From contig RWJK01001422.1 in the NCBI GenBank assembly GCA_004335835.1, positions 23,897 through 87,896 on the forward strand: 64,000 nt of DNA, written 5' to 3'. The position numbers were made by a program, and so were the translations under genes. Positions 5,736-62,263 of the stretch are shown in pieces. The DNA is from Scenedesmus sp. ARA3. Its lineage: Eukaryota > Chlorophyta > Chlorophyceae > Sphaeropleales > Scenedesmaceae. The notes under the pieces were generated by a model. It ran no database searches. It worked only from the letters and a program-made list of their open reading frames with translations, and had not been told where the DNA came from. How positions within the stretch are numbered: position 1 is the first letter of the stretch; each line of letters opens with the position of its first letter.

Positions 5736-8567
5736 ATGCAGCCTACACGAGTAGCAAAGCCACGGCCGAACTACTTCTATGGTGTGCTTGTAGTGGGCAC
5801 TCCCACACTAGCAGCCAGGCCACCTCCCGTAGCTGGAACTGACCAGGCTTGCTCTTGCAGATTACCGTGCATCGGTGTCTGAGAAGTTCATCAGGCGGGG
5901 GCTCTATGTGTGCTGTCGCAGTCTGCCAGCAGCAATCCTGCTGGCCATTGCAGCGTCTCTGGCGGTAAGCTGATACTACAACAGCTTTAATTGATTGATC
6001 AACAAGTACTGAAGTATTGTGCACGTCTAACGCGGTCTTGTTGTTGCCTTACAGCTGGAGCTGGGCAACATGCTGCGCACCGGTGAACTCATCAGGCTGT
6101 GGTCGGTGGCCAGCCAGACCGACCTCACGTTCAACCTGGTGAGGCCAAGTTTACAGCGGAACTCTAACAGCGAGGCACGCACCTTCTGCGTGCGTGCGTG
6201 CGGGACGTAACGCCCTCTTATTGCACTCTTGGATGCTGCAGGTGACCGTGGTGCTCTCCAGCAGCGTGCTGCTGGCAGCTCTGCTGTCCTTCTTCCTCCT
6301 GCAGACACGCCCAGTGTACCTGGTGGACTTTTCCTGCTATAAGCCACCTGACAGGTGTGCGCACAGCTGCAGCAGAGAACAGCAGCAGAGGCAGCAGCAT
6401 TCTTGGATTGCAGCGCCATGCAGCTGTGGCATGCACATGATTGCGCAACAACAGCATTGCTCACATCTGCTTTCACATCTGCTTACAGCAATCAGTGCCA
6501 TATGCAAGCAGAAAGGCTGCAAGCAGCGTGCATCGGCAGTAAACACATGTTTGTACTGCCTGGCAGCGGGTCAATGCACAGCCATGCAGCAGTGTGGCCA
6601 ATTGTGCACTCTTGCCATGCCTACAGCATGAACTGCACTCGCCTTGCAGTGTTCTGTATGCAATTGAGCATCATGTGCTTGCACCTGTGCTGCATGTGCC
6701 TGTGCTGACTGCATCACTGCTTATGGTGTGCCCTGCGCCCGTGCTCGATACCACCATCTCTCATATCTCAACAAATAACACAGTTGGAAGACGCCAAGGC
6801 AGATGTTTCATGAGTGCTCTGTGGCGTCTAAGGCAAGCCTGCTGCCACGTCGCGGTTTTTGAATTTCAAACACATGCTGTGTTGGCGCGTTGCATCTTGA
6901 TGTCGCACTCAGGAGGGTCATCTAACGTTGCGCACGCCTGCTGCATGTGCTGTGTAAACTGCGCAGCTGGAAGTGGCCAAGGCAATGGCATGCGCACTGC
7001 ACTGCTGCGTGCAAGGTGTGTAGTGCCTTGTGCTTGCCGCACACCAGCATTATCCCAGCAAGCATGTGCAGCAGCTGCTCATGCTGTATGGCCCTGGCAA
7101 TTAGATCTAAGAAGCAGCGGCACTAACGCACCCCAGCACAGCTGCGGGGTAGCAGCGTGCACGCCCGCTGTTCCCACAGACTGCTTGCAGGCAGACGCTT
7201 TCAACAGCAGCAGCCATCATCATCAGCAGCAATTCCTGCAGCAGCAGCAGCTTCAGCAGCAGCAGCACGCCTGCAGGAGCAGCAGCAGCCAACATCTGGC
7301 ACACCTTTCACAGCAACAGCGGCAGCAGCAGCAGACACCGTAGTCTTTATCATGATGACTCTTCAGCTTCCAGCCACCATCGCATCGTCTTCTCCCTCGT
7401 GCCTTCCTCTCGCTAATTTTCAACTTCTGCATGCTCCTCCTCCCGCAGAAGTTCACACCGGAGAGCATTGACTTTCAGAGCAAGATCCTCGCGCGCAGCG
7501 GCCTGGGCGATGACACCTACCTGCCCCCGGGCCTGGCGCAGCAGCCGCCAGCAATTAGCATGAGCGATGCGCGCTGGGAGTTTGAGCAGGTGGGGCAGCA
7601 GTCGCCGTTATTGCTACGGCTTGATTGGTGATATGTTGATGGGCAGGAGTATGAGCAGGTGGGGCAGCAGGCTGCTAGGCAGTACAGGAGGCAGTACATA
7701 TGCAATAGATAGGCAGTACATGAGGCAGTACATGGGGGGGACAGCCGCCAGCAATCAGCATGAGCGATGCACGCTGGGAGTTTGAGCAGGTGGGTCGGGA
7801 AATTGGGAAACATAAGCAGGCTGCTAGGCAGCAGGCTGCTGATCAGTACACGAGGCAGTACATGGTGCAGTGCAGAGGTAGTTCATCAGGCTTGATATCA
7901 TGCAGTACATGATGCAGTACATATTGGCAGCAGCAGCCGGCAATCAGCTTGAGCGATGCACGCTCGGAGTTTGAGCAGGTGGGGCAGCAGTGGCTGTCTT
8001 CATATACACAATCAACGTAATGGCAGCAGACTAGAATGCAGCGGTGTGCGAGGCAGTAGGCTGGAAAGCAGCAGGCTGCTCAGCTGTTGGTGAGGCAGCC
8101 GTGTACAAGGCAGCAGCACATGAAGCAGCAGCAAATGAGGCAGTGGTGATGCTAGACAAGGTTGTTGCTGCACGTGTCGAGTGCGAGGCCTGAGTGCAAT
8201 GTTTTGGTTGCCCTGCAGCCACATAGATTGCTTGTGTGCACTCCTGCTGCGTGTAGCACCAAACCTGCATTTTACACTGCTGCTTTTGCTGCTGCTGCTG
8301 TGGCCGCTGCTGCTGCTGTCCTTGTTCACCCCAGGTGTGCTTCACTGCTGTGCGGGACGTACTGGCGAAGACGGGCGTGCACCCTCGCCAGATCGGCTGC
8401 GCGTGCTGTGCTCTGACCCTGCAATGACACATGCTGCTGCTGCTGCTGCTGCTGTCCTGAATCAACCCCAGGTGTGCTTCACTGCTGTGCGGGACGTGCT
8501 GGCGAAGACGGGCGTGCACCCTCGCCAGATCGGCTGCGCGTGCTGTGCTCTGACCCTGCAATGACAC

Positions 8568-8605
<38 letters not shown>

Positions 8606-11453
8606 CCTAATCAACCCCAGGTGTGCTTCACTGCTGTGCGGGACGTGCTGGCGAAGACGGGCGTGCACCCGCGCCAGATTGGCTGCGTGATTGTCAACTG
8701 CAGCCTGTTCAACCCCACGCCCAGCCTCAGCGCGATGATCATGAACCACTTCAAGATGAGCAGCAACGTCATCAACTACAACCTAGGAGGCATGGGCTGC
8801 TCAGGTGGGCTGGGTTTCTAGGTCACTACCACAGGATGGCATACCTGCTTAGACCAATATAATCATATTAGAGCAGCGCCACTTCAACATGAGCAGTTGT
8901 GTCAACATGGGCTGCTGCTGTGCGGAGAAAGATCAAGCACCCGGCAGCTGGGCAGGTGTAGGAGTGCAATTGCAGCTCTGTCAATGGCGGTGTGTTTGGC
9001 GGTGTCAGCTTGCCAACTCACACACCGTGCTCTTGCACGGGCACCTTTGTTTGCATGCAGCCCCACCACACTCACCTACATTGTGTATGTCTGTGGTTTG
9101 CTGCTGCTGCTGCTGCTGCTGCCTCACTACTGTAACTGCAGCTGGCATCATCGCCATTGACCTGGCCCGCCAGATGCTGCAGATGCTGCCCAACACCTAC
9201 GTGCTGGTGGTATCCACTGAGAACATCACCCAGAACTGGTACTTTGGCAACACCAAGTCCATGCTCATCCCCAACTGCCTGTTCAGGGTGGGAGGAGCAG
9301 CCATGCTGCTGTCAAACAAGCGCGTGGAGTCATGGTGGGTTCACAACAAGCCAGGCACAGCTATCAATGCGCTGGATGGTTTGGCGTGTGTAGTGATGCA
9401 CTTGCATCTGCAGCAAAGTGACCTCCCTCTTCTCACTGCTGTGTGCACGGCTCTGCACGTGGCTGCTGCGGTGTGTGCTGTTGCTGCCCCAGGCGTGCCA
9501 GCGTACAGCCACCACGTGGTGCGCATACACCTGCTATGCCTCACCATTTTGCTTAGACAGCTCTGCACCGCTTGCATGCTGTCAACGTGCTTATTGCAGG
9601 CGTGCCAAGTACGAGCTGAAGCACGTGGTGCGCACGCACCTGGCCAACAATGACGCGGCCTTCAACTGCGTGGTGGAGCAGGAGGATGCAGAGGGTGTGA
9701 GGGGCGTGAAGCTGTCCAAGGAGCTCATGGCCATTGCAGGTGCGGCGTCACCGCTGTTATGCTGTTACTTTGGATTTGTGTTATATTGTCATGTCGGAAG
9801 TGATGACGGGTGGTGGAGCAGGAGGATGCAGAGGGCGTGATGGGCGTGAAGCTGAGCAAGGAGCTCATGGCCATTGCAGGTGCGGCAACTTATGAGAGAT
9901 AAATTGGCTTCAACAGTTGGCGCAGTAGTGCGAAACAGCTTGGCCATGGCGGCTGGGTTTCCGAACTTCGCCTTCTCATGGTTTGTTGGTGCAACAGGGG
10001 AAAGAAACCCGCCCATGCTAAGCCCGCTCGCTTGCCCATCAGCGAGCAGATGCTTTCCACATGTCACTTGAATACTGTCGCATCTGTCATTTCTGTTGTT
10101 ACTTTCAGGCGAGGCGCTCAAGGCCAACATCACCACACTGGGCCCGCTGGTGCTGCCCATCAGCGAGCAGCCCCCCCCCTAAGTTATGTCAACTCTGTCA
10201 TAACTGTCATTTTTGTTGTTACTTGTGCTGTCACTGGCAGGCGAGGCGTCAAGGCCAACATCACCACGCTGGGCCCGCTGGTGCTGCCCATAATAGAGTA
10301 TACCCCACCATCACCACCACACGTTATATCAATTATGCCATAGTTGTTTTGTGTTGTTATATTTGTTGTCACTTTCAGGCGAGGCGCTCAAGGCCAACAC
10401 CACCACACTGGGCCCGCTGGTGCTGCCCATCAGCGAGCAGATGCTGTTTGCGCCCATGTTATATAAACTATGTCCTGACTGTTATGTTTGTTGTTACTTT
10501 CAGGCGAGGCGCTGAAGGCCAACATCACCACGCTGGGCCCGCTGGTGCTGCCCATCAGCGAGCAGATGCTGTTTGCGGCCAACCTGCTGGGCCGCAAGCT
10601 GCTGGGCAAGAAGAAGCTGCGGCCGTACATCCCAGACTTCAAGCTCGCTTTTGAGCACGTGTGCATCCACACAGGTGCGTGGACCGCGTGGCGTTGCATG
10701 GTTGATGTCAGAGAGTGCAGCTGAAAGTGCTGTTGCTGTACTTTCATTGCATAACACACCTGGTTGCCAAACTAACAAGTATAAGATATGGTGAATCTTT
10801 GATTCAGCCTGCAAGAGCAACTTGCCGTCCTGACGCATGTCCATCTGCTTCTGTCTATGGCTGCGCACACTACTTTTGTGCACAGGCGGTCGCGGCGTGA
10901 TCGACGAGATCGAGAAGCAGCTGTGCCTAACGCCCGAGTTTGTGGACGCCAGCCGCGCCACGCTGTACCGCTACGGCAACATCAGCAGCAGCAGCATCTG
11001 GTGAGCAGCGGCGGCTCCTCCTGCATGATATGCATGATGTTAATTTCACAGTAACTTGTTATGAATGTCATCACTGGTACTGTCATAAGCAGGGGTGATG
11101 TGTGTGGTGTATCGTTCCTGCTGCTAGCTTGCCTCCAGACACTCGCATGCACGTCAGGGGCGGCAGCTCTCTGACAAGCTGCCCTCGCTTTGCTCTTCTG
11201 CTGCTGAGCCACACTCCAAAAGAAACACAAACCCCCTGCTCCTGCTGCTGCTGCTGCCAGGTATGTGCTGGCGTACATCGAGTCGATGAAGGGGGTGCGC
11301 AAGGGTGACAGGGTGTGGCAGCTGGGCTTTGGCAGCGGCTTCAAGTGCAACAGCGCTGTGTGGGCCGCCAACCGCCGCATCAGTGACCAGCACGCAGCCT
11401 GGGACAGCTTTGACCACGACCAGATGGAAGATGACCTGGCGCAGAGCCTGTAG
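5736..11453 (+). CDS. KCS: 3-ketoacyl-CoA synthase (fatty acid elongase condensing enzyme)
   Basis: Condenses malonyl-CoA with long-chain acyl-CoA, the first step of very-long-chain fatty acid elongation at the ER. Twelve exons are in phase: 5736-5781, 5861-5964, 6055-6138, 6242-6354, 6784-6832, 7449-7589, 8621-8804, 9142-9334, 9600-9739, 10504-10674, 10886-11000, 11261-11453 (510 aa). Two N-terminal hydrophobic segments precede [14 protein letters not shown]. Catalytic residues are Cys239 in GMGCSG, His407 in CIHTGG and Asn440 in RYGNISSSS. The Cys-His and Cys-Asn spacings (168 and 201) equal those of Arabidopsis FAE1 (C223, H391, N424). Exon 5 is the least certain; it ends in a GC-type donor (AAG|GCAAGC) but is needed for frame and fits the family spacer. 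Five echo arrays fill the introns from 7590 onward. No missing key residue is seen. Confidence 0.95.
7540..7985 (+). repeat. Donor-side echo array, KCS exon 6 (3 copies)
   Basis: The tail of exon 6 (DARWEFEQ plus GTGGG donor) ends at 7589 and is repeated with donors at 7790 and 7979, giving periods of about 200 and 189 bp. Copies carry substitutions, such as a Trp codon changed in the third, so they are old enough to have diverged. Confidence 0.85.
8320..8690 (+). repeat. Acceptor-side echo array, KCS exon 7 (3 copies)
   Basis: The unit is CCCCAG| plus the exon head encoding [19 protein letters not shown]. Heads start at 8335, 8472 and 8621 (periods 137 and 149). The period difference comes largely from (CTG)n length. 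The first two copies read into TGA about 30 codons in and lack the rest of the exon; only the third continues to [13 protein letters not shown]. Confidence 0.95.
9485..9640 (+). repeat. Acceptor-side echo, KCS exon 9 (2 copies)
   Basis: The head of the exon at 9600 ([13 protein letters not shown]) has a decayed copy starting at 9493, with GCGTGCC and CACGTGGTGCGCA conserved. Period 107 bp. Confidence 0.75.
9665..9890 (+). repeat. Donor-side echo, KCS exon 9 (2 copies)
   Basis: The exon tail encoding [10 protein letters not shown]...[11 protein letters not shown] ends at donor 9740 and recurs with donor 9880, period 140 bp. The copies differ at a few bases, including a GTGAGG to GTGATG change inside the coding part. 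Confidence 0.9.
10005..10575 (+). repeat. Acceptor-side echo array, KCS exon 10 (4 copies plus a fragment)
   Basis: Exon heads encoding [21 protein letters not shown] start at 10109, 10241, 10379 and 10504 (periods 132, 138, 125). A partial copy of the distal half lies near 10007-10055. The copy at 10241 has lost one base; the copy at 10109 runs into a C-tract and TAA. Intronic TGTCAT...TTGTTGTTACTTTCAG is duplicated with each head, so the duplicated unit is intron tail plus exon head. Confidence 0.95.
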
Positions 11454-14255: not shown

Positions 14256-17200
14256 TCACGCCGGCGGCCGCGCGTGCCGCTCCGCTGCCGCCATGGCCTG
14301 CTCCGGCGCTGCGGCCAGGCGCAGCAGGCGCGCTGGGTGCTGCCCCGCGTACTCTTCCAGCTGCTTCAGCACAAAGCCCGCCTCACGCATCGTCTTGCCC
14401 TGCACCCACCTGCGGACACATGCAGCGGATGCATCAATGTGAGCCTCTGAAGTATGACAGTGTAACGCGTTCCAACGGTCTTGCCCTGCACCTCCGCAAG
14501 CCTACACCATAAACGTTTGAGACCCAGCGAACAAGCCCAAGCGGCAGCCAGACTATCAGAACTAGCAGCTCCGAGCTGGCGGCCGCCAACTTCTTCTGCT
14601 GTGTGGTGACAATCACAGATTCTGCCTGTCTAGATTGCAATGTCAGCAACTGCCAGCCGTTCAGCGACTGTGTTGGCATCAACACTCGAGCAATATGTCG
14701 TGACTTGATCTGAGTGGCCAGCAGCGGCAGCTGCGGCGGCCTGTTTCTACGCTTTGACCAGCAATTCAATTGCAAGGCTTGCGCAAGCCAACAACTGCCG
14801 GTACTACCAACTAGTAGCTGCTGTTCTTGCAAACCAGCTAGCTTGTTGTTTGCTCTGGCTGGTCGTGCAGCCCACCTAGTAGAACTCGTCCAAGGCGCCG
14901 CAGTAGCAGGAGTTGGCTGTCCTGGCCCTGAACTGCATCGCCCTACACACCCATCATCAACTCGACTGGTCAACAGCAGCACACGCACCCTTGCATATAA
15001 CTTATAGAACGCGCCGCAGTAAAAGCAGTTGGCGGCAGCAAGGTGACTGCCCAAACACCCAACATCAGCTTGCTCGGCCAACAGCAGCACACCCACCTCG
15101 CGTAAAACTCATAGAACGCGCCGCAGTAAAAGCAGTTGGCAGCTGCCAGGTGGCTGCCGGCCCGCCGCGCGTGGCGGGCCAGCGCGCCGCCCCGCAGTGC
15201 CACCAGCGCCCAGCGGCTGATGTTGAGCGACACCACTGCCAGCGGGAACTCCTGGCGTGCACTGCAGGGGTGAAACAACGTGGCAAAACATGGCATGTGG
15301 CCAATGGTAAGGCCAGCAGGGAATGACAGATTGAACTCAGCCGCAAGCACCAACAGTGCATTCAATGATTGTGCAGACACCACAGCCAGAGGGAACTCCT
15401 GGCGGGCGCTGCAAGGGGTGAGCATGACAAGTAGTAAGTGGCAATGTCTAGGGTTAGGCAGAATGGGCGTACTTGCAAGCACTAGGGCTGCAAGTGGTGC
15501 TTGCGCAGACACAACATCCAGAGGAAACTCCTGGCGGGCGCTGCAAGGGGGTGACAAGCGGCAAGCAGCAAGTGGCGAGACCTGCAGGGAATGACAGAAT
15601 GGACTGAGCCGCAAGCACCAGCAGCATAACTCATGCGTGTGCAGACACCATAGCCAGCGGTAACTCTTGGCGGGCGCTGCAGACAGCAAAAGGCAGCAGG
15701 GGTGTGGCGCAAGCAACAAGTGCGGATGTGCAAGCACTGTGATCATACTTACTGCAGCAGTGCTGCTCTGCTACAGTACTCCAGGCTGATTACCTTAGGG
15801 GAAACTGTGGTGCATCTACACTCCCGCCGCCATCATCGGCGCTGATGCTGCACCAATAAACCAATCAACCTTGTCCGAGCCTCACCTGATGGAAAGCTGT
15901 TACAGCTTCTGCGCCGCCGCAGGGCTGTGGTGCGTCAGGTACAGCAGCTGCAGCAGCCCCAGCATGCCTCAGCAGCACTCATGTTGTCCCAACCTTGCGC
16001 GTGTGTGATCCTCACCTGATTGACAGCTGGTACAGCTTCTGCGCTGCCACAGGGCTGTGGTGCGTCAGGTACAGCAGCTGCAGCAGCCCCAGCATGCCTC
16101 AGCAGCACTCATGTTGTCCCAACCTTGCGCGTGTGTGATCCTCACCTGATTGACAGCTGGTACAGCTTCTGCGCCGCCACAGGGCTGTGATGATGCAAGT
16201 ACAGCAGCTGCAGCAGCCCCAGCATGCCCACGCCCCTCAGGTCTGTGGCGGGGTCATCACCCTGGAAGCCGATGGCGCCCCAGTGCTGCCCGAAGCGCGG
16301 CACGGGCCCGGGCTGGCCTGCAGCAGCAGCAGCAGCAGCAGCAGATGTAGAGTCAGTGCTTCGACACAACTACACATGGGTGCCATCACTAGCAGTTCTA
16401 CTGGTGTGCGAGTACTCTCCGCCTGGTTGTTGGCAGCATGAAGTCTCGACAAGCCACTGTGCAACGCCCGGCATGGTCCCACCTGCCCCCTGGCACCACC
16501 ACAGCTGCACTCACCTGTGAACGCGCAGTACACCGCTTGCAGGATGCGCGTGTGCACCTCGCTCGCATCATTCAGCCCTGTCTTAGCCAGGCTCAGCAGC
16601 AGCACCACCTCCTCATGTGCAGCACTGCCATCAGCAGCAGCCAGCTCAGCCCCTCCTCCCCCACATGCCACATCAGCAGCAGCAGCAGCACCACATGCTC
16701 CACAAGCCAGCAGCTGCGCCAGCCGCCGCGACAGCCAGCTGCGTTGTTTGGGGAGGCTTTGCAGGACAGTTGCGCGGTGGCTGCGCAGGTCGGTGGCCAG
16801 TAAGGACGCCTCGGCTGCTGGGTAGGCAACGATGCATCCTGCTGCTGCTGCTGCTGCTGCGCTGGTTGAATCCTGCAAGCAGGCATGCCAGTCAGTATAG
16901 CAGTACAGCAAAGCGTGCTTGCCAGATCCTGTCCTTTGCTATCTCAAAGCAGGCAGTTGCCAGCAGCTGCTGTGACATGCACATGCACAGCACACACGTC
17001 ATGGCATCACATCTGCTCACAGTGCAACCGTGCCTGAGCAAGAAAACTCAGCTGACTTCGCACTCCTGCTGCAACAGCCATCCTGCAAGGCTCACCTGCT
17101 GCTGCAACTCTGCCAGCCGCTGCCTGTTTGCTGCCTCCCACTCATCCTCCTCAACAGCAGGCACTGCTGCTGCTGCTGCTTCACCAGCAGCAGCACCAGC

Positions 17201-17721: not shown

Positions 17722-19245
17722 CCGCTGACTCCTCATCCAGGCCTTCATTGTCTGCCTCCATCACTGCACTGAGCGTGCGCCTGTTCAGCAGAGAGGGGAA
17801 CTGCGCTGCTGCCCAGGACTCCTCCTGTACTCCGAACAACACAGCACAGCACAGCACGACATCAGCACAGCACAGCGCAGCACGGCGCAGCGAAGTCAGA
17901 TGACAAGAGGCATATGACAACACCTTCCAGCTGTGCATTACTTTGACACTGCTCTGTCAAGGGAAACATGGGCGTTCAGAGGCAAGCTGACGGCAGCTGG
18001 GCAGTACACGCAGTATGCAAACCAGGGCCAAGGCGGCTAACAAACATGCTGGTTGCTTGGAACGACATCTGATGACCTGTTGCATGCGGTACTAATACAT
18101 AAGGCTGTCAAGCAGGTGCACATGGCAGCAATCACCTGGTACTCAGGATGATGCACACCATGCTGCTGGTACGTGCTGCTGCTGCTGCTGCTGCTGCCTG
18201 CAGGAGGCATAACGTCCAGGAAGTCAAACTCGTCAGCAGCAAAGCCGCTGTGGTGAGGGGCCAAGCTGCTGCTGCTGTTGCTGGGTGCGCTGCTCGAGCA
18301 GCGAGCTGAAGCTGCCTGTATGCAGTTGAAGCAGCAGCAGTAGCAGTAAAAGCAGGCGTGTTCCTTCCACTCTGGAACAGCCAAGCAGCATGGTTTATGC
18401 TGTCGTTGAAATAGCGACTTATAGCCGCATGTTCAGCCACACTGCTGCTCAACTGGAGCAACAGCGATGCGATGGCTACATTGACTGCACTGCACATCAG
18501 CCGTCTTGCATTTTCACTATTAAGTTCAAGCCAGCAGCTTCACCCATGCTGCCGCTCACCTTGAGGCCCTCGCTTTCAAACATGGAAGCCACCTGCTGCT
18601 GCTCCTGCTCAGCCGCATCAGCTGCACTGTGGCCCTACTTCAAATGCCTAATTCCTATGCCGCAGCTCCAGCCATGCTGCTGCTCACCTTGAGACCCTCT
18701 CCCTCAAACATGGAGGCCAACTGTGGCGTGTGTGGCGTGGGCGCTGCAGCAGCCTCGTCCACGCTGCTCTCCGAGAAGCAGCACTCGGACGGCAGCATGC
18801 AGGCAAAGTCTGGCAGCTCAAGCGACATCAGGCCTAGGTGCCCTCCTGCAGGCTGCCGCAAGCCGCTTGTTCCGCTACTGCTACTGCTACTGCTGTTTCC
18901 TGGCAAGCTGCTACTGCTGCCGTTTGCTGAGCCGTATGATATGCTGCTGGCTCCGCCGTCGCTGCTGCAACATTTAAAGCTGCCCCATGCTGCTGCAATG
19001 TCTCCTGCAGCAGCTTCCTGGCCAGGTAGTGAGGCATTCAAGCTGCAGGATCCGCCGCTGCTGCTGCTGCTGCTGCTGTTGCCGCAGATACTGCTTGCTG
19101 CACCCTCAAGCAAGCTTGGCGTTCTGTGGTGCCTTGGTGGGGTTGAGGGCTGGCTTCCACTGCCGGTAGGGGACAGCTCAAGGTCAAACGATGCTCCATC
19201 CAGGGGGAATGACCCCAAGTTTATGCTGGTCAAACTGTTTGTCAT
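14256..19245 (-). CDS. ELMO/CED-12 domain protein
   Basis: Seven exons on the minus strand join in phase: 19245-18688, 18315-18136, 17824-17096, 16872-16515, 16317-16146, 15261-15097 and 14409-14256 (771 aa). Residues 1-~490 are low-complexity, with Ser, Gln (12 or more in a row) and Ala tracts. The ELMO domain follows: EVHTRILQAVYCAFTG, then HWGAIGFQGDDPATDLRG with GMLGLLQLLYL, then NCFYCGAFYEFYARW and a C-terminal helix. ELMO/ELMOD proteins act as GAPs for Arf-family GTPases or as Rac-GEF partners in animals. The stand-alone ELMO architecture, with no PH domain seen, suggests the ELMOD/Arf-GAP side; this is inference. The ATG at 19245 is the first Met of the longest first exon; an upstream exon is possible. 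Five intronic echo arrays are present. Confidence 0.85.
14456..14505 (-). repeat. Echo fragment of ELMO last-exon head
   Basis: Minus-strand GGTGCAGGGCAAGACCGTTGG resembles the head of the last exon (VQGKTM) immediately upstream of the functional copy that starts at 14409. Short and decayed. Confidence 0.6.
14870..15165 (-). repeat. Donor-side echo array, ELMO exon 6 (3 copies)
   Basis: The exon tail encoding HLAAANCFYCGAFYEFYAR with its GTGGGT donor (exon end 15097) recurs downstream on the minus strand at about 14990-15048 (GAFYKLYAR) and, more decayed, at about 14874-14930. The linked intron text (CTGTTGGCCGAGCA, GTTGACCAGTCGA) is duplicated too. Confidence 0.85.
15230..15690 (-). repeat. 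Acceptor-side echo array, ELMO exon 6 (4 copies)
   Basis: Exon heads encoding ARQEFPLAVVS (variants LDVVS, LAMVS) start at minus-strand positions 15676, 15540, 15408 and 15261 (periods 136, 132, 147). Only the last continues into the full exon. The accompanying intron sequence (CTGCGGCTCAG..., CCTGCAG) is also repeated. Confidence 0.92.
15881..16317 (-). repeat. Donor-side echo array, ELMO exon 5 (3 copies, exact 130-bp period)
   Basis: The exon tail LLQLLYL.HHSPVAAQKLYQLSI plus GTGAGG donor recurs with donors at 16145, 16015 and 15885. The two echoes are almost identical to each other over 130 bp, far more than to the intact exon, so the latest duplication is recent. They read Thr-His-His where the exon reads His-His-His. 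Confidence 0.95.
17690..17725 (-). repeat. Poly-Gln CAG tract in the ELMO protein
   Basis: About twelve CTG triplets on the plus strand encode consecutive Gln in exon 3. Adjacent intron text at 17840-17885 holds an (AGCAC)n-type short repeat. Confidence 0.85.
18540..18720 (-). repeat. Donor-side echo, ELMO exon 1 (2 copies)
   Basis: The exon 1 tail ASMFEGEGLK|GTGAGC ends at 18688. A copy, SMFESEGLK|GTGAGC, ends at 18560, period 128 bp. Confidence 0.85.
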
Positions 19246-19865: not shown

Positions 19866-22800
19866 ATGAACACCATGCTGCTGCGCCACCACACCTTGCG
19901 TAGAGCTATCATATGCGGGTACAGCAATCAACAAAGGACCTACGGCACGAACAGGACAGGCGGCAGGGGAGGGTCTGAACCTCGCCAGTATCAGCAGCAA
20001 CAGCGCCGGCGGCAGCAGCAGCAATGGGATGATGATGGCTACTCTTCATACAACAGCTCTAGACCGCCGCGTCGCCGCGTTGAAAAAGCTCCAAAGCAGC
20101 TGCTCAGGCGCCCTGGCCAGCAACACACGTACTTGGTGTCTTGCCACCCTGGCCTAGAACAGGTCAGCACCAGCTCTACAGTCCTGAGCTGCTCGATTAC
20201 TGCGTCATGTGCCGCGCTGCAGCACCCCAGACATTTTGCGAGCACACTAGCAAGCGTATAGAGGATCGCATACACATGCTTGCTACTGTTTCCATCCATG
20301 CCATGTCTGCACACCAACAGCCTTCAAAAAATCATCCGCTCCTGATGTTTCCTGCAGGTGACAGCGGATGAGCTGCAGCAGCCTGGCCTGGAGGCAGCGC
20401 AGGGCGTTGAGGTCATAGCACCAGGCAGGGTGGCCTTCTCGTGAGTTTCCTGCAAGCAGCAGCTGCTGCGTCTTGATTGCTGTTGATTGTTTCCCTTGGT
20501 GTTGGCATGCTGCCACTGAAGTCATAGCACCAGGCAGGGTGGTCTTCCCGTGAGTGTCCTGCAAGCAGCAGCTGCTGCCTCCCCATTGCTGTTGATGAAC
20601 ATTCCTTTTGGTGTGGAATGCCAGCACGGGTGTCCCCGCAGCATGTGCTGCATCACAACAAACAACTCATTTGTCTCTGACCTGCAATGTAACCAGCAAT
20701 GTTCAGATCAACACTTTTGCATCAACACGAGTTTGACATTCATGCCATGTTGCTGCCACTACTGCTGCTGATGATGCCGCTGCGGTTGCAGGTCTGACTC
20801 TTTGGCAGGCGGCTATGCAGCGGCGCTGTGCCTGCGATCAGCCACGCGTGTGCTGCAGATCATACACGAGGAAGACCTGAACCCAGACAGGGCAGCAGGA
20901 GACACGGTAAATGATACGCCAGTCATCTTCATGCTGTCCGCAGTTGCCTCTCAGCGTTGGGTTGTGCTGAGAGCTCATGTCTTTGAATACCAACAGTGCG
21001 AGCAGCTGCCAGTGCTTGGCAAGCTCAGCAGTGCTGAAAAGCACAGCGTGAGCGTGTGTGTGTTGCCACCCTGCTTGCCATCCAAGCACAACCAGCAATG
21101 CTGCGCAGCCAGCACACTGCTACACATCGACATAAACACCATGCACCTGCACTTGACGGTACCCACTGAAAGCATTCAAGCCTAAGCTCTGGTGCTGGTG
21201 CTTGCCTGGCTGCAGGTGTATGAAGCCACTCGTGCAGGCGCACCCTGGCAGCAGCTGCTGCAGCCTGGGCAGACGCTAGGGGTGCACTGCATGCACTTCT
21301 ATGGCAACAGCAACATAACAAACAGCCAGCTGGTTGCGCGGCGCGTGCGGGACGCCGTCTGCGACGCAGTGAGGGATGCACGGTGGGTGGCAGCAGCGGC
21401 AGCAGGAACAGCAGCAGCAGCAGCAGGTACAGCAGCGGTTTGGTTGTGCTGACACAGTCAAGGATGACACACACTGCAACCTTCTGTACTGTCACAATAC
21501 GCTGGATTGGTATGCAGCCCAGCAGGATCACCTGCATATGCAATCATTGCACCCGCCTAGTGCCCCTAGGGACTGTCAATCTACTGTTGCTCCGTGCTTT
21601 TGGGTGATTTATTTGCTTTGGTATGGCTGCAGGGGCGTGCGGCCCGCTCCTCCTGATGGCGCGCCAGACCTGCCGCTGGTGTTCCAGATGCTCGATGACC
21701 GGCTGCAGCTGTTCAGGGACCTGGGGGGCGGCAGCCTGCACAGGTGTGCCATGTTGCAGATGGTTTCAGGACAGATATGAGCCTGCATGAGCACATCGTG
21801 GTGCATGACTGGATGCAGCTGTTCAGGGACCTTGGAGGTGGCAGCCTACACAGGTGCGCTGCTGCACGCTGCTGCATGTGCAGATGTGTCTAGCGCAGTA
21901 CTCAGTGCTGTGCAGCTCATTGAGAAGTGACTCTGGCTCTGCTGTGGCTACATGGCCTCAAGATCAGGCAGAGAAGGGCACATTCCATTTCATTTTTTCA
22001 TGAAACTACACATAAAACTAGATGTTGCAGTCGTTGACTTTGTGCTGCCTTTGCTGGTGGTTGTGTACTGCCTGCAGGCGCGGATACAGGTCCGGTGCTG
22101 CAATGCACAAAGCTGCGCTCAACGAGGCAGCTGCGGCGGGGCTGCTGCTGCTGGCGGGATGGCAGCAGCACAGTCAGCAGCAGGGTGAGCAGTCTTCTGC
22201 AGCTGCCGCTGTGTTGCCAAAGGCGCTGCTCGGCAGCATGAAGCGCGCTGCATTGCTCATGGTCAGCAGTGGTGCTTGCAAGAATCATGACTGCATGTTG
22301 AACTCAAGTATGTGCTTCTACATGGCTGCAGCTGTAGTGGCACTTGACAGCAGCAACCTTGAACACCGTCTTCAACAGTAACCGCATCCATCACATCCAT
22401 CGTGCTGATGTTTCCCTACCTTCTTATTGCTTGCAGGCGTTGTGTTGGCCGACCCAATGTGCGGTTCAGGCACGCTGCTGATTGAAGCGGCGCTCATCGC
22501 CACAGGCGCCGCGCCCGGCCTGCTGCGCAGCAGGTGGCCCTTTGAGGACTGGCACGACCACGACTCGCAGGTGGGTGCGTTGCAGTATTTTTGAACTGAA
22601 AATGGACCGTGTGTCAGTTTGATGCGCCGTAGCCGATGCATCAAGCAAGGCATGGCACGTGGCACGACCACGGCTCGCAGGCGGGTGCGCCATAATCAAT
22701 TGTAAGCTTGACAGATCAAGCGTGGGCATTGATGCGTGGTAGGCAAATAGGCTCAAGTGGGGATATGCTTAAATAGTAAGCGTGGCCCTGAACGCCACCA

Positions 22801-42670: not shown

Positions 42671-42705
<35 letters not shown>

Positions 42706-43135
42706 TGCTGATCTGCAGTCCTCACCCACTTTATCTCCACTAGCATTGCAGCTCACCCTACAAGCTACGCTGCATGCTGCTGCTTTGGCTGAGCTAGAGC
42801 AGCAGCAGGGCCTGCGGCAGCGCAAAACAAGATGGAAAGGTTCCCAGCGCGGGCCCGGACCCATCCCATATCAGCAGCTGTTCCGGCAGTGCTCGCAGCT
42901 CTGGGACATGCAGTCAAAGACAGCTGGGTTTGAATCGTGTTATATAACAGTGCAGGTGGCAGGGGGACAGCTGCTGACGCTGGCGAAACTGCAGGCACAG
43001 GGCAGTGTGTGGGCCGGGACAGATGAGGAGGGACAGCGGGTGGAGTGGACGGGCGGGACAGTGCTGAATGACTTGTGGTGCTTTGGCTGGGACCAGCAGC
43101 AGCAGCAGCAGCAGCAGGGTGAGCTGCAGGGTGGT

Positions 43136-43175
<40 letters not shown>

Positions 43176-44969: not shown

Positions 44970-45012
<43 letters not shown>

Positions 45013-45095
45013 CAGGCGTCAGCTAGCAGCTTGTTCCTGCTGCTGGTGGTGGCCAGGTCAGCACTGCTGATGCAGCACACACTGCAGACAGCAGC

Positions 45096-45139
<44 letters not shown>

Positions 45140-45387
45140 GTGTGTCAGAGGAGCAGACAGTTCGCAGCAGAGCTAGTGCACAGCCTCTGATGGTGCTGCA
45201 AAGCAGCAGTGCAGTTTTGCAGGAAGTGTACTGCAAGTGCATGCAGCTGCTAGAGTGCCTGCAAGCCAGTGCAGCAGCACAGCCTGCAGCAGCAGCAGCA
45301 GCAGCAGCTGCTGCTGCTCAGAGCTCTAATGCGCAGCTTGTAGTGTGGGAAAGCCTGCTGCAGCTGCAGGCATTTGTGCAGCCGCAT

Positions 45388-45433
<46 letters not shown>

Positions 45434-46226: not shown

Positions 46227-46443
46227 TGGAAACAGTGCCGGTTTTATACAGTACATGCATGGCCACGCATTTTCAACCATTGATAGGCCAGGAGCAGCAG
46301 GAGCGCTGCAGTGATGGGTGCTGGCAGCTGCGATTGGCTGCAGGGAGTCAACTGCTGCTGGCGGCACAGTGGTAGTGGCACCACTGAGGTGCTTGAGCCT
46401 TGATGCTAAGACCGCATGCTCAGCATCGTACGGCGGCCTGCAG

Positions 46444-54534: not shown

Positions 54535-57025
54535 GCCAGCAGCGCTGCAGGAGTGCGGTGGAACCTGCAGGAACTGCATCTGAAAGCACAGGATCTGAAA
54601 GATTGCACACCCTTGACATACCACGCAAACCAGCACCGCCACATGACGCGGTGCCGGATGCACTGACTGAACTGTGCGCGCCTCACACTGCCAACAGTCA
54701 TTGCCAGATGAGCAAGCAAGCGGCGTCGTGCATGGATCTGTAACGTCATCGCCTACCTGTACATGTGCTGCTCCCAGGTGCACCAGAAGGTCGAGCAGCT
54801 GCAGCATCAGCGCCAGCAGCAGCTTGCGCCTAGCCGCCTGTACCTGCCGCCACCCTGGCAGCCAGCCGTCTTCAAGCAGCCGACACCGCAGTTCATGGTG
54901 AGCAGGCTGCAGGGCTCTGGCCTGTTGGCGCTGCTGCACGTGATTAAATACTTGTCTTTGGTGCATCAGCACTACACTTGTGCCCATGCTTGGCCCATGC
55001 ATGGCAGCCTATGCCTATAGGTCGTACTGGTGCCTTGGTGGCGGTGCGGCCACTGCCAGCTGCGTCCACCTGCCAGCAGCGTACAGATGACAAGCCTTGC
55101 ATCACACACCGCCGTGCGCCGGCTGCTGCACCACGCCACCAATCTGTCAGTCAAACTAGTCACTCTGCGCTGTGCTGCTTACACTATCCGTCAATACTAT
55201 TTGGTGGCTGCAGGTGCTTGCTGCGGAGGGCTGCAGCTTTGTGGCACTGCATGACAGCCGGCTGCAGTTTTGACACAATCCGTCACACACCTGCTGCAGG
55301 TGCTTGCTGCGGAGGGCTGCATTTTTGTGGCGCTGCATGACAGCCAGCTACAGCTTTGACACCATCTGCCATGCCGCCTGCTGCAGGTGCTTGCTGCGGA
55401 GGGCTGCAGCTTTGTGGCGCTGCATGACAGCCGGCTGCAGTTTTGACACAATCTGTCACATGCGTGCTGCAGGTGCTTGCTGCGGACGGCTGCAGCTTTG
55501 TGGCGTTGCACGACAGCTGGCTGCAGTTGTTCCACAATCTGTCACACACCTGCTGCAGGTGCTTGCAGCGGAGGGCTGTAGCTTTGTGGCGCTGCATGAC
55601 AGCCGGCTGCAGTTCACGCCGCAGCGCTGGACGTACGGCCCCGCAGACTGCAGGGGGGCCTGGCCGCTGCTGTGGGCCTGCATGCGCACCTACACGACAG
55701 CAGCACAGGTGGGCAAGTGGCTCGTTGTTGTTTCAGCTGTGACAAAGGCGGTACAGCAGCTGGTTGTTGTTGTCTGTGAGATAACAACTGCATGTAAGCA
55801 TGTGAGTATGTCTGCATGCGCACCTACACGACAGCAGCACAGGTGGGCAGTTGTACAGCAGGGGGTGCGCTGGGGCTGTGACAGCTGGCTCGAGCTCGCT
55901 TGTTGTCTCAGCTGTGGCCAAGAAGTTACAGCAGCTGGTTGTTGAGTGTGTATGTATTCGGCAACCCGGTCATGGCTGTCTTGCAGGCGTGCCAACAGCT
56001 TCTGTAGCAGATGGCGTGAAAACACTGCAATGGTTATGTCACAGCAGCCGCTACAGTTCAAACACCTAAACCAAACTAAGGTACAAGACATTCTGAACAC
56101 TGTCCTTGAGCGGTTCACATGTGTGCTATGCAGGCCATGGCTGCAGCGTCTTCCCAGCGAGGCAGCAGCAATGCAAAGGGTGCTAGGGTGAGTGCCAGGA
56201 GACGTGATCAAACCTGCTTGCCAGCGATCAGTCGGCCCCTGCGGCAAGCTGTCACGCCACGCTTACCTGCTGAATTGTGTCTTAGTTCTGCCTCATAATG
56301 GTGGCAAATAAATTTTCTCCTGGCTGCATGTTGCTGCAGGTGCTTGCGCGCGTGCTTGTGAAGGGCAGGGGTTACACGCATGCCGACAGCGGCTGTGTGG
56401 CGGTGCCGTCGCTGCTGTTTGATGCAGTGCTGGAGTACGTGCCGCAGACGCCCAAGGAGCGGCTGATGGCTGTGGACTATGGCTGTGGGGGCTTTCAAGC
56501 AGGTGCCGCTGTTTGACTGGGATCATTGGATCATCTGGAGTATGTGCCGCGCTGAGTCGTGTGACAGGTGCCCAAGGAGCGGCTGATGGCTGTGGAGTAT
56601 GGCGAGGTCTTACAAGCAGGTGCTGGTGTTTGACTGGGATCAGCAGGTGGTCATGGCATGTGTTGCAGACGCCTTGACAAGGAGCGGCTGATGGCTGTGG
56701 ACTATGGCTGTGGGGGCTTGCAGGCAGGTGCCGCTGTTTGACTGGGGTCATCTGGAGTATGTGCCACACTGAGTCGTGTGACAGGCGCCCAAGGAGCGGC
56801 TGATGGCTGTGGAGTATGGCGAGGTCTTACAAGCAGGTGCCGCTGACTGACTGGGATCAGCAGGTGGCATGTGCAGCAGACGCACAAAGAGCAGATGGTG
56901 GTTGTGGACTATGGCTGTGGGGGCAAGCAAGCAGGTGCTGGTGTTTGACAGGCAACTTGAGCGCGCGGCGTGACCAGCGGATGAGGGAGACTCTTGTTGA
57001 CGTGCACTGGCAGTGCAGCTTGTGA
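54165..57025 (+). CDS. Unrecognised multi-exon gene
   Basis: A tentative chain, phase 0 at most joins: 54165-54320, 54364-54396, 54778-54897, 55021-~55158, 55559-55708, 56134-56187, 56340-56502, 56952-57025 (about 295 aa). Segments that look coding: DDCQRHKCK, HQKVEQLQHQRQQQ, SRLYLPPPWQPAVFKQPTPQF, VLAAEGCSFVALHDSRLQ, TPQRWTYGPADCRGAWPLL, GRGYTHADSGCVAVPSLLF, EYVPQTPKERLMAVDYGCGG. I recognise no family. The 55021 exon and the 3' end are the weakest, because echo copies offer alternative splice sites. Three arrays are present: five copies of one exon head, two of an exon tail, five of another tail. The TATA-like element makes the start uncertain. Confidence 0.38.
54495..54540 (+). repeat. (CAG)n tract in an intron of the unrecognised gene
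   Basis: About 14 CAG/CAA triplets between 54397 and 54777. Intronic in the proposed model, but a long open frame passes through it, so it could be exonic poly-Gln instead. Confidence 0.8.
55212..55605 (+). repeat. Acceptor-side echo array, five units of ~86 bp
   Basis: Heads encoding VLAAEGCSFVALHDSRLQ begin at 55214, 55300, 55387, 55473 and 55559. Each of the first four is followed by TTTGACACAATCTGTCACAC-type intron text and CTGCTGCAG. Where I read the frame, the echo hits TGA right after LQF. Only the fifth continues as an exon. This is the most regular array in the window. Confidence 0.97.
55680..55860 (+). repeat. Donor-side echo (2 copies)
   Basis: CATGCGCACCTACACGACAG-CAGCACAGGTGGGCA ends the exon at 55708 and recurs at 55814-55849, together with flanking GTTGTTGT...CAGCTGTGAC text. 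Period about 130 bp. Confidence 0.92.
56440..56945 (+). repeat. Donor-side echo array with dimeric higher-order structure (5 copies)
   Basis: The tail KERLMAVDYGCGGFQ recurs near 56450, 56573, 56683, 56790 and 56886. Copies 2 and 4 share the variant GTGGAGTATGGCGAGGTCTT; copies 1, 3 and 5 keep GGCTGTGGGGG. Thus a two-unit block of ~220 bp was itself duplicated, together with ATGTGCC[GA]C[GA]CTGAGTCGTG. Confidence 0.92.
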
Positions 57026-58759: not shown

Positions 58760-58807
<48 letters not shown>

Positions 58808-61800
58808 AGGGCTTCCACGACGAGGCCTACAAGCAGCGCAGGGTGATGATCGCAAACATTGCCCGTCAGCACGAAGTGTGAGTGGCTGCACAGCCTGCAC
58901 TGTGACAGTGTTCGTGCAGCAATGTTGATGCAGCAATGTTGTGCAATGTTGTGCACTCATGTCAGCATAATCCTGGTCTGCAGCAACTGCCTGTCAGTTG
59001 CTTCGTGTGTGAGACGGCCACCTGCTCCACATGCGTTTGGGGAGAGCCTATTCCCCGCATCATTTACATCACTGAGGTGTTGGCGGTGTGGCAGCCAAGC
59101 ATTTTACGTGCTCCTTGTATGTTTTCTGTGCGCTGCAAACCCTACATCCTGCTGGTTTCCTTGCTGTTGAATGTTGCAGGGGTGAGCCCATCCCTCGCAT
59201 CGACTACACACCTGAAGAGGTGGCGGTGTGGGGCACTGCTTTGAGCAAGCTCAAGGCGCTGTTCCCCAGCCACGCCTGCGCAGAATTTAATGCGGCACTG
59301 CCCAAGTTCAACTTCAGGTGCGAACTTCACACTATGAACTGCAGCAGCATGACGGGTAGCAACAGCGCGAGCTCTGCTAGTGTATGGGCAGCAAGGATGC
59401 AGGTGCTGCTCTGCTGGTGTCCTTACAGCGTGGCAGGAATGAGCTGCAGCAGCTGGATGTTCCCCACAACGGGCGTAATTTTGCATGCATTGCATGCTTG
59501 CTTCAGTCTGTGCCTGGGTTGCGTTCACTGTGATGTATATTTCACCTGTTAGGTCACAGTGATGCCCGCACTTGCACACCCTTTGCAACTGGTGTGTGTG
59601 ATCATCAAGTGTTACAAGCAGGATGAGGTGCCACAGCTGCAGGACATCAGCAAACATTTTTGGCACACTGCTCACATGTGTGTGCATCGCTCACATGGTT
59701 GTACAGCGCTGTTTGTGATATCAAAATGTGCTTTTGGTGTCATATACTGCAGGGAGGACGAGGTGCCACAGCTGCAGGACATCAGCGAGGTGTTGCAGCA
59801 GTCCAGCGGCTGGCAGGTGCGGCCCGTGGCGGGGCTGATGCACCCGCGAGACTTCCTCAACGGCCTGGCCTTCAAGTGAGCGTGGCAGGGTTTGATGTCA
59901 GGGTTTCCAACAGAAGAAGTAGAAATTCTATGCGGCTGCAGGGCTGACGCATCCACGGAAACTCCTGAACGCCTTGGGCTGCAAGTGATTGGTTGGGTTG
60001 CAAGTGTGGGGGGGATCAGGAGATGTGATCTGGGCTAAGCAGTCGGCCTTTGCAGGGCTTATGCACCCTAGGGATGTTCTTCCATGTGCTGAAGCCCTGT
60101 CAACTGCTGCTGCTGCTGCTGCCACCCGGCCAGGTACTTTCACTCCACGCAGTACATGCGGCACGCCTCCAAGCCGCACTACACGCCAGAGCCTGACGTT
60201 GTGCATGAGCTCATCGGTGCGCAGCAGCGAGTGTGTTAGGTCAAAAATTGTGTCATGCAGAGCCGCTGCTCAGCCCCAGTAACACTGTGTTACTGCACTG
60301 CGTGTGTTCAGCTTATTGATTCAGCTGTACAGTCTGTCGCACTTGTTTGGATCGGTCACCGCACCAGTGCCCCTTGCCTTGTTGTAGCGCTGTCGCTTGG
60401 TGTTGCGCCTATGTTTGCAGGTCACATGTTACTACTGTGAAACTCTGTGCTGCATCCCTTATCTCTGCCACCCAAGCCGCATGTCAATGGTTGCCAACAC
60501 TGCCGCTGCTGTCATCGACGTGCATTGCTGTGCCTGACTCCGCTTGCTGCGCTGCCCTGTGCCTCTTTTTCTGTTATCGTCTGTTTCCGCCACCAGGCCA
60601 CGTGCCCATGGTGGTCGACCCCACGTTTGCGGAGACGGTGCAGCGCTACGCCTCACGTCACTTGTTGTGCTGTCTGTGTTGTGCTGTCCGGTGCATTTCT
60701 GTCGCTGTGCAGGCCACGTGCCGATGCTGGCCGACCCCACGTTTGCCGAGATGGTTCAGGCCATTGGCGTGGCCAGCCTGGGCGCTGACGAGAAGCAGAT
60801 CTGGCACCTGACCAAGGTGAGTGGTTACTTGTTTTTTGGCTGTTTGTACTGCATGTGTTGTAAAGCACACAGCAAATGTTCTGCATCTCTATGTTTTGGC
60901 TGCAACTGTGACAGCCAGTGAGCAGGCTACAGTGTATGGTTTGTTTGTGAGGCCAGCTCAAAAGTCAGCTGCTGCGCTGCTGCCGCCGCTGCCGCTGCTG
61001 CTGCTGCCGCTGCTGCGGCCAGGTGTACTGGTACACTGTGGAGTCGGTGTGGTGAGGGAAGCGGGGGACATTGTGTTGTTGAACAGACATCAAGGCCTTT
61101 GCTAGTGTAGACATAACAACATGTTTACAAGGAATCTTTCTTGCTGCTGCTGCTGCTGGCAGGTGTATTGGTACACTGTGGAGTTTGGTGTTGTCCGTGA
61201 GGCCGGGGACATCAAGGCCTTTGGCTCAGGCATCCTCAGCAGTTTCGGGGAGCTGGAGTACATGGGGCAGGTGGGCATTAACAATCCGTAGTGTTTTGTG
61301 CATGATTCTTTGGCAGCAGTAGGGCAGTTGTGCCAATGCTGCGCTGCTGTATTGTTGTCACAGAGGCAACGCTTTTGTCCCTGTGTCTCGTTTAGTGCAC
61401 TGTATTTCACTGACCCAACCAGCAGAAGGGCACATGTCACCCATCCCACCGCATCACTGCTGCTGCTGCTGCTGCCGCTGCTGCTGTTGCTACCGCCGCC
61501 TCAGGGTCGTGCTGAGCTGGCCCCCTTTGACCCCTTCAGCGCTCAGCCCAAGATGAGCTACAAGGACGGCTACCAGAAGCGCTACTTCGTGCTGGACAGC
61601 TTCCAGGTGTGATGCACGCTAGCTTGATGCGCATCAAGAGAATGCTCTGGTGCATACTGTGACGCTGCTGGCATGCCAACTATCTTTTTACCATGGTTTA
61701 AATGGTTACCAGAAGCACTACTTTGTACTGGACAGCTTCCAGGTGTGTATTTGTGACGGTCTGGCTGTTGCTTTGAATCAGTGTCATGCAAGTGGATAGG

Positions 61801-62263
61801 CAAGTCAAGGATTGACGGGATGTTGATTGGCAAGTTGATAATTGGCTACCGGCAGCGCTACCTCGTGCTGGACAGCTTCCAGGTGGGAGGGGGCCAACAT
61901 GCTTGTGTCAGCAGTTGTCACTTGCGCGGGATTATTTGCAAGCAACTTTGCAAGCGGCACTTCGTGCTGGACAGTTTTCAGGTGGTAGGGGTGCATGTCG
62001 TCGGTGTTTGGGTATCGGACAAACCGACATACTTGAGAAGTGACCATTATTTCTCAGACTATGTGTTCAACCTGTTGTGGCTCATACCATCTAAGATGGT
62101 TCCAGGACTCACATGTAACTATCCTCTCTCAAATTCTGGTGGTATTTTTTGCAAGCGCTGCTTGCTGCTGCTGCTGCTGCTGCTGCTGATGCTGCTGCAG
62201 ACCGGCCTTGACCAGCTGCGCCAGTTTGCAGCAAGCATAAAGCCAGGGGTGTCAGCACGCTGA
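58088..62263 (+). CDS. AAH1: Aromatic amino acid (phenylalanine) hydroxylase, plastid type
   Basis: Exons from the second onward are in phase: 58088-58305, 58810-58877, 59180-59317, 59753-59875, 60134-60216, 60713-60816, 61163-61270, 61505-61606, 62201-62263 (about 335 aa plus an unresolved 5' exon). A Ser/Ala/Thr-rich leader ([18 protein letters not shown]) looks like a transit peptide. The catalytic domain has [56 protein letters not shown], the iron-binding HELIGH (spanning the 60216/60713 junction) and VYWYTVEFG with the third ligand Glu, then [11 protein letters not shown]. This iron enzyme converts Phe to Tyr. In mosses, conifers and Chlamydomonas it is plastidic and uses a folate rather than tetrahydrobiopterin. 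No ACT regulatory domain is seen, as in plant forms. Six echo arrays. Confidence 0.94.
58765..58808 (+). repeat. (CTG)n tract forming an acceptor
   Basis: About 14 CTG triplets lead directly into CTGCAG| before the [11 protein letters not shown] exon; the repeat supplies the polypyrimidine-like tail. Confidence 0.9.
59036..59235 (+). repeat. Acceptor-side echo, hydroxylase exon GEPIPRIDY (2 copies)
   Basis: The head [17 protein letters not shown] at 59180 has an upstream copy at about 59041 reading [17 protein letters not shown]. Period about 140 bp. Confidence 0.9.
59605..59800 (+). repeat. Acceptor-side echo, hydroxylase exon EDEVPQLQD (2 copies)
   Basis: The head [10 protein letters not shown] at 59753 is preceded by a copy at about 59620-59656 (GATGAGGTGCCACAGCTGCAGG). 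Period about 140 bp. Confidence 0.92.
59820..60085 (+). repeat. Donor-side echoes, hydroxylase [17 protein letters not shown] (2 decayed copies)
   Basis: After the donor at 59876, 59934-59988 reads GGGCTGACGCATCCACGGAA...CTGCAAGTGA, and 60050-60080 reads GGGCTTATGCACCCTAGGGA. Both are remnants of the same exon tail. Confidence 0.82.
60590..60770 (+). repeat. Acceptor-side echo, hydroxylase exon GHVPMLADP (2 copies)
   Basis: The head at 60713 ([16 protein letters not shown]) has an upstream copy at 60597 ([18 protein letters not shown]), including CAG acceptor and TGTTNTGCTGTC intron text. The echo carries the second His of the iron motif, so using it would swap a short segment before diverging. 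Confidence 0.93.
61010..61215 (+). repeat. Acceptor-side echo, hydroxylase exon VYWYTVEFG (2 copies)
   Basis: The head at 61163 has a copy at 61023. The copy has lost a T (GTGGAGTCGGTG vs GTGGAGTTTGGTG region), shifting frame just after the iron-ligand Glu codon. Intronic (CTGCTGC)n and GACATCAAGGCCTTTG are also shared. Period 140 bp. Confidence 0.93.
61560..61990 (+). repeat. Donor-side echo array, hydroxylase exon [12 protein letters not shown] (4 copies)
   Basis: The tail with donor at 61607 recurs with donors near 61743, 61882 and 61981. The copies encode [24 protein letters not shown] and [10 protein letters not shown]: amino-acid-level similarity survives although the copies are outside the proposed protein. 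Confidence 0.93.
62088..62130 (+). repeat. Short dispersed repeat, copy 2 (hydroxylase intron)
   Basis: CCATCTAAGATGGTTCCAGG-ACTCACATGTAACTATCCTCTC matches 42200-42245 at roughly three quarters of positions. It includes a 15-bp near-palindrome, ACCATCTAAGATGGT. Confidence 0.65.

Follow-up and report, generated by a model that had tools for sequence, protein, structure and literature searches.

Intron lengthening is usually ascribed to transposons and random small insertions, and introner elements are dispersed families in which intron sequence is created by copying. Introns average 462 nt in T. obliquus and 230 nt in R. subcapitata (PMC5966456). Tandem duplication of exonic DNA is a published route to new introns in Drosophila (PMC2891723), and tandem duplication of exons occurs with mutually exclusive splicing (PMC9013439). 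In the green algae Chlamydomonas and Volvox tandem repeats are enriched near intron-exon junctions (PMC3887541), and fill-in of breaks followed by end joining generates small tandem duplications (PMC8355091). Here we describe the terminal 64 kb (64,000 nucleotides; the window) of the 87,896-base contig RWJK01001422.1 from the assembly of Scenedesmus sp. ARA3 (87.3 Mb, 1567 contigs), in which introns carry arrays of copies of the edges of their own exons. An intronic copy of an exon edge that is detached from the intact exon is termed an echo. Exonic tandem duplication and junction repeats are known; we noticed no description of exon-edge arrays among the open-licence PMC papers listed, a search that left most subscription papers outside, and the word "intron" is absent from PMC12571836 and PMC7955037.

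The arrays share with the Drosophila introns the tandem duplication, the entry of exon sequence into introns and a splice-like motif in the unit (PMC2891723). Here, however, the intron pre-exists, the echo lies about 122 nt from the splice site in use and the intron continues behind it; the copied exon end was not found at the opposite splice site. Mutually exclusive exons likewise have tandem exon copies beside an exon (PMC9013439), whereas in this alga usually one edge is copied, the spacing is mostly not a multiple of three (3n) and the predicted use is unsupported, with frame-preserving, stop-free use possible at 11 of the 71 edges analyzed below. The repeats of Chlamydomonas and Volvox also lie in introns of green algae and are enriched at junctions, but those considered here are motifs such as GT/AC (PMC3887541) and not exon-containing units of about 120 nt. 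Fill-in with end joining offers a break-repair route to short tandem duplications (PMC8355091), although under it a preference for exons would be unexpected and newborn copies should be identical. With introners the arrays have in common that intron sequence stems from a copying process, but the units examined are locus-specific. The matches listed in a genome search with the uL11 exon were its own array and one 43-nt place elsewhere; those listed for a KCS edge were the array it belongs to and one KCS paralogue.

Exon-edge echoes in the window and across the genome

Seven genes of the window were modelled by hand (KCS, an RlmL-like methyltransferase, uL11, eS6, a MYND-finger protein, an aromatic amino-acid hydroxylase and ELMO), giving 36 introns; first exons are absent from some models. 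None of the seven contained an internal stop on translation. A Pfam scan of six proteins (RlmL-like methyltransferase, L11, S6e, biopterin-dependent hydroxylase, ELMO and MYND) bears out the gene names given in an earlier note on this DNA. The KCS protein matched one from Scenedesmus sp. NREL 46B-D3 at 371 of 378 positions without gaps, and the two algae are therefore probably close relatives within the Scenedesmaceae.

Comparison of the window with itself at 40 bits or more yielded 68 same-strand repeat pairs less than 1 kb apart and no inverted pairs less than 3 kb apart. At a cut-off of 45 bits, 30 arrays were obtained; 29 of them lie at a predicted edge, one of which (28362-28603) meets a coding end only, and the remaining array is a coding repeat. 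The "about 27 arrays" of the earlier note was hence the right count. Echoes were then scored with a probe of 32 terminal exon nt plus 6 intron nt (or the mirror image), searched in the adjacent intron only. Six genes gave 38 echoes scoring at least 26, a score reached by 0.15% of 1360 shuffles. At a score of at least 34, which none of the 1360 shuffles attained, 19 of 68 edges and 15 of 34 introns in these genes carried an echo; with ELMO included the count was 22 of 72 exon edges (seven genes, 36 introns). At a score of at least 30, half of the modelled introns (18/36) held copies of their own exon edges. The copies are direct, adjacent and comprise the entire unit, in support of the earlier proposal of repeated local tandem duplication over exon edges with the intact edge retained. 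The geometry claimed with it, donor-side copies after the intact exon end and acceptor-side copies before the exon start, held for the echoes found, the search being confined to the adjacent intron. Retention of AG or GT in every unit proved to be the rule (109/128 echoes overall, 48/55 in the window) but not without exception, and two arrays (28362-28603 and 46206-46317) cross a stop codon and 3' flank where an exon/intron boundary had been claimed for every unit. Because no splice site is involved in these two, the decisive feature may be the border of the coding sequence and not the splice site as such.

For comparison, 20 further stretches of the same genome were fetched, two on the window's own contig; all material is a single genome assembly and genes outside the window are predictions. 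The window plus 19 stretches came to 248,798 bases; locus L010 (889 bases) was excluded from analyses with a hidden Markov model (HMM), and two stretches contain runs of N (L023, 3110; L025, 2516). The gene finder, a small HMM trained on the hand models, reached a sensitivity of 0.98 and a precision of 0.92 on the training genes only. In the combined set 83 near tandem arrays were detected: 72 at edges (two meeting only a coding end), seven intron-only, three exon-internal and one intergenic. Edge arrays occurred in 11 of the 19 outside stretches, and near inverted pairs numbered three in total across 17 stretches. A KCS paralogue on another contig (L008, C604:10001-20000) carries a separate donor-side echo where the equivalent exon ends. 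Exon-edge echoes are confirmed as real and not limited to the window, and the arrays are genome-wide.

The preference for edges was compared with a null model of random 125-nt duplications from which exon-breaking ones are purged, leaving 6631 edge and 7411 intron-only start positions, so that both kinds should occur at similar frequency. In the modelled genes 22 arrays spanned an edge and none was intron-only (P 7e-8); the one pair flagged as intron-only belongs to the uL11 array. A single detector located copies at 71 of 658 predicted edges (93 prior to cleaning) versus 20 of 964 intron-interior probes (P 1e-13), with 9 of 427 intergenic and 14 of 312 exon-interior probes as controls. This comparison is conservative, because the search covered both flanks of each interior probe but a single flank of each edge. 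Inside array territory, excluded from these probe counts, copies were present at 70 of 188 intron and 11 of 39 exon probes. Arrays matching over the full unit with a period of at least 60 nt comprised 16 at edges, five in introns (three of them within arrays classed as edge among the 83), one in an exon (126 nt, in frame) and one past the uL11 stop codon. At periods of 25-59 nt there were seven in introns, eight in exons, one intergenic and none at an edge. Whole-unit arrays are likewise edge-biased, and therefore the bias is early and does not reflect only the longer recognisability of exon copies.

Cleaning removed 22 of the 93 HMM edges with echoes, in which the exon taken as functional exceeded the copy by at most 11 nt, and left 71 (37 donor, 34 acceptor; 28 inside the window, 43 outside). 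At 56 of these the nearest copy lies within 170 nt, at a mean spacing of 122.5 nt (sd 17.2); only four edges have a nearest spacing below 100 nt, and 13 fall at 200-300 nt, about two units. The duplications of about 122 nt start in the exon near its edge and end in the intron, or the reverse, and the exon share correlates little with unit length (r 0.17; uncleaned 93-edge set, spacing <170 nt). Two candidate signals were rejected. Unit length modulo 3 gave 21, 17 and 33 edges for remainders 0, 1 and 2 (p 0.053), an excess of class 2 without depletion of 3n, which is no sign of frame selection. CAG/CTG tracts occurred no more than 12 nt from 90% of exon breakpoints, but also from 92% of random exon positions. 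Introns with an echo (score of at least 30; 18 introns) have a median length of 522 nt versus 262 nt for the 18 without, and the length increases by about 116 nt per echo, although the association is partly circular because longer introns give echoes more room. With that qualification the intron growth suggested by the earlier note is upheld, and introns of this alga seem to lengthen via exon-anchored duplication.

Codon positions and decay of the echoes

Exons and their nearest echoes differ at codon positions one, two and three in the ratio 95:83:224 (71 edges). The quotient of third over first plus second positions is 1.26, whereas a neutral echo should give 0.79 if the exon changes amino acids at 5% of the neutral rate. 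This is an excess of about 1.6-fold, with bootstrap 95% confidence intervals (CI) for the observed/expected ratio of 1.31-1.94 for all 71 edges, 1.29-1.99 for the 43 outside the window and 1.08-2.50 for the 28 inside; the 93 uncleaned edges gave a similar codon-position outcome. The implied neutral share of the echo branch is 0.51 (0.38-0.67), or 0.55 with transition bias, and an independent measure from indels gave 0.57. Acceptor echoes had a neutral share of 0.31 versus 0.70 for donor echoes (CI up to 1.02; permutation p 0.0125). With transition bias the shares were 0.33 and 0.75, and from indels 0.34 and 0.85, for acceptors and donors respectively. On the simplest reading of the third-position excess, about half of the divergence between exon and echo accumulated while each was functional separately, i.e. 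they descend from different alleles; standing allelic divergence together with exon-echo recombination would also give such a signal. Polarised counts from echoes only (echo-private changes 18:22:41; non-oldest echoes 35:24:59) showed an excess at third positions as well, but are given no weight, since the oldest echo is confounded with changes on the exon branch.

Decay of the echoes was evident in several respects. Gaps in their exon parts break the frame in 37 of 46 cases, similar to introns (73/91), and the splice dinucleotide is lost in the minority given above. Among nine echo-echo pairs with homologous intron parts, identity was 0.925 in the exon part and 0.785 in the intron part, random intron pairs giving 0.754. 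The KCS protein of the close relative NREL 46B-D3 lacks all echo sequence. In-frame use of echoes found no support as the source of the codon bias: among acceptors the bias was 1.00 for the seven in-frame, open echoes versus 1.96 for the 27 others, and among donors 1.12 for four versus 0.99 for 33.

Arrays at individual genes of the window

All arrays below are on the plus strand unless stated otherwise. In KCS, exon 7449-7589 has donor-side echoes ending at 7789 and 7978 and a fragment at 7658 (array 7538-7997), and exon 8621-8804 has acceptor-side echoes starting at 8335 and 8472 (8287-8687). The donor-side echo of exon 9600-9739 ends at 9879 (9670-9886), its exon part matching at 94% over 70 nt with an intron extension of 7 nt. 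Three acceptor-side echoes, starting at 10109, 10241 and 10379, belong to exon 10504-10674 (10033-10581). ELMO, on the minus strand, carries donor-side (14871-15158) and acceptor-side (15229-15682) echoes of exon 15097-15261, donor-side echoes of exon 16146-16317 with a 130-nt unit and a match of about 94% (15877-16228), and a donor-side echo of a predicted exon upstream of the modelled ones (18534-18723). Single donor-side echoes in the methyltransferase gene follow exons 20358-20440 (20408-20596), 21633-21743 (21695-21859), 22437-22570 (22550-22689, with GC in place of GT) and 23617-23977 (23940-24100). Exon 22957-23067 has two, ending at 23198 and 23365 (23016-23376), exon 24422-24615 has an acceptor-side echo (24304-24467), and a weak pair at the end of the coding region (24600-24855) matches at 73% over 90 nt (50 bits).

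In uL11, exon 26713-26900 is followed by donor-side echoes ending at 27026, 27349, 27467 and 27586 (26816-27589), with a partial copy preceding a run of N. Relative to the exon and the first echo, the three farther copies have two third-position differences in common, two of these three share two additional third-position differences, and one farther echo and the partial copy share a first-position difference. As evidence for two allele classes this array is suggestive, not proof. The run itself (27102-27252, 151 N) is a possible assembly gap inside the array. The last uL11 exon, 28298-28408, has a weak acceptor-side echo (28170-28356, score 31), and at 28362-28603 the C-terminus, stop codon and 3' flank are copied without a splice site. 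Acceptor-side echoes of the last eS6 exon occupy 31044-31306 on the minus strand; an eS6 intron also contains, at 32299-32384, a perfect 45-bp tandem pair that is telomere-like (AACCCTAACCCTACCCTAAAC). At 37218-37395 a single-exon gene contains diverged coding repeats (GAYSL-like by eye) with spacings of 117, 90 and later 72 nt, all 3n.

The MYND exon 42584-43394 has an acceptor-side echo (42258-42639) and donor-side echoes ending at 43638 and 43849 (43297-43865), and exon 44435-45611 has acceptor-side echoes starting at 44085, 44198 and 44301 (44017-44498). A 24-nt exact copy of the last MYND codons and stop lies in the 3' flank without a splice site (46206-46317). The gene at 54165 has an acceptor-side array of five 86-nt copies at 55207-55614, of which the last is continuous with exon 55559-55708; the same exon has a donor-side echo with 38 identical nt at a distance of 134 nt (55678-55849), and an array with a unit of about 110/217 nt lies at predicted edges (56423-56952). 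Acceptor-side echoes in the hydroxylase gene precede exons 59753-59875 (59620-59786, AG lost), 60713-60816 (60594-60759) and 61163-61270 (61002-61212, one-base gap), and donor-side echoes of exon 61505-61606 end at 61742, 61882 and 61981 (61568-61991). The last hydroxylase intron also contains an 82-bp dispersed repeat (62052-62133), for which scoring of 40 among 838 candidates gave matches of 77-95% identity on at least 39 further contigs. Of nine copies examined, seven lie in predicted introns, in both orientations, and two are predicted to be intergenic; the repeat is probably a transposon remnant rather than an introner. A relative was recognized by eye, below the search threshold, in a MYND intron at about 42190-42250.

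Origin of the copies and meaning for intron growth

As the source of the edge duplications of about 122 nt we tentatively favour aborted recombination or repair anchored in exons, often templated by a diverged allele. A broken end would pair with homologous DNA by strand invasion where the homologues still match, and would be extended beyond the exon border into non-matching intron. Once released, the extended end would undergo end joining with the opposite side of the break, and an additional exon edge with about 70 nt of intron would remain. If the template was often a diverged allele, edge preference and third-position differences would both follow, because exons are where diverged homologues still match; duplications entirely within an exon would be purged unless in frame. 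The copy joined to the whole exon stays functional, and the intronic echoes show little sign of use, decay and add about one unit each. Exon-anchored repair would account for the edge preference, the presence on both sides of introns, the scarcity of copies in intron interiors and the allele-like differences. The wider proposition, that a standing process of this kind lays edge copies of about 120 nt genome-wide, often from a diverged allele, and that introns accrete exon fossils recording past alleles, is conceivable, although we consider it doubtful.

Several observations weigh against exon-anchored repair from a diverged allele. The narrow unit length is left unexplained, and the difference in neutral share between donor and acceptor echoes is unpredicted; for donors alone the CI of the ratio (0.99-1.63) touches the neutral value. 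For the MYND exon, the hydroxylase gene and uL11, the matches listed in the assembly included neither a diverged allele nor a close paralogue, so that the supposed template is not seen. NREL 46B-D3 is described as likely diploid, with secondary scaffolds called at >95% identity (PMC7955037), and this implies less divergence than an allele template needs. Some arrays are near-identical in their intron parts (ELMO donor, 41/41) though the exon parts differ. The copy-bearing intron probes in array territory (70/188) were kept out of the interior count, and the gene models outside the window come from an HMM evaluated on its own training genes only. Finally, a deficit of nonsense changes in nearest echoes and an effect of 3n spacing, both detailed below, suggest some use.

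According to the alternative of random small tandem duplications, those breaking exons are purged, those at edges survive, and exon-bearing copies stay recognisable longer through their one selected partner. It is not the likelier account in our judgement, though a serious one: the array geometry fits, exon-internal arrays with in-frame spacing exist (84 and 117 nt; the remaining exon-internal array is at 688 nt), and intron parts decay faster than exon parts in the nine echo pairs. However, the 22:0 split between edge and intron-only arrays arose on targets of similar size, and full-unit arrays with periods of at least 60 nt stand at 16 versus 2 once the three sub-arrays are set aside. By our estimate the slower decay of one partner should yield less than a two-fold bias, and the third-position excess is unpredicted. 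The earlier note had held the arrays to be random duplication that selection tolerates; these counts, with 71/658 edges against 20/964 intron interiors, speak against tolerance alone.

A role of the echoes as alternative or decoy splice sites or poison exons, maintained by selection, appears improbable. It would fit the third-position bias, and tests several of which were picked post hoc give two hints towards use. Nearest echoes at the 71 edges show one nonsense change among 185 non-synonymous ones where 8.8 were expected, but farther echoes show 8 against 8.1 expected. GT/AG is intact in 47 of 50 nearest echoes at non-3n spacing versus 14 of 21 at 3n spacing (p 0.0055); the effect weakens to p 0.10 over all 128 echoes and is not seen in farther ones. 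Loss of GT/AG at 3n spacing could reflect selection against in-frame mis-splicing that is beyond the reach of nonsense-mediated decay. Against use stand the codon bias, which is not focused in in-frame open echoes, the decay of dinucleotides and frame, the spacing (a multiple of three at 21 of 71 edges) and the relative's echo-free KCS protein. Little therefore speaks for regulated mis-splicing, raised in the earlier note: in-frame, stop-free echoes show no clear concentration of the coding-like signal and the splice dinucleotides decay, although the two post hoc hints point the other way.

We give only a small chance to an assembly artefact in which diverged haplotypes or strains were placed in tandem. 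Allele-like differences between copies would result, the spacing fits within short-read length, one assembly underlies all stretches, the 151-N run sits within the uL11 array, and an N run in L023 starts 119 bases past an array; the other four of the six N runs, however, are far from called arrays. The divergence of the copies, from which the earlier note excluded assembly duplicates, is a weak argument alone, because diverged alleles laid in tandem would look diverged too. Its conclusion is better served by the two or more echoes at 34 of 71 edges and by the frameshifts and lost splice sites within echoes. Intron gain through a duplicated AGGT-containing exon piece, published for Drosophila (PMC2891723) and likened to these arrays in the earlier note, would place exon-derived sequence within introns but is very improbable here, since the copied exon end should meet the opposite splice site, whereas it lies about 122 nt into an intron that continues beyond it, and the shortest of the 36 introns measures 184 nt.

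The placement of echoes is not explained by chance plus tolerance. If exon-anchored repair is the true source, intron length in such algae would be driven by a specific recombination outcome, and abundant decoy exon edges would mislead gene finders and splice predictors. The echoes would then also be a record of past exon alleles.

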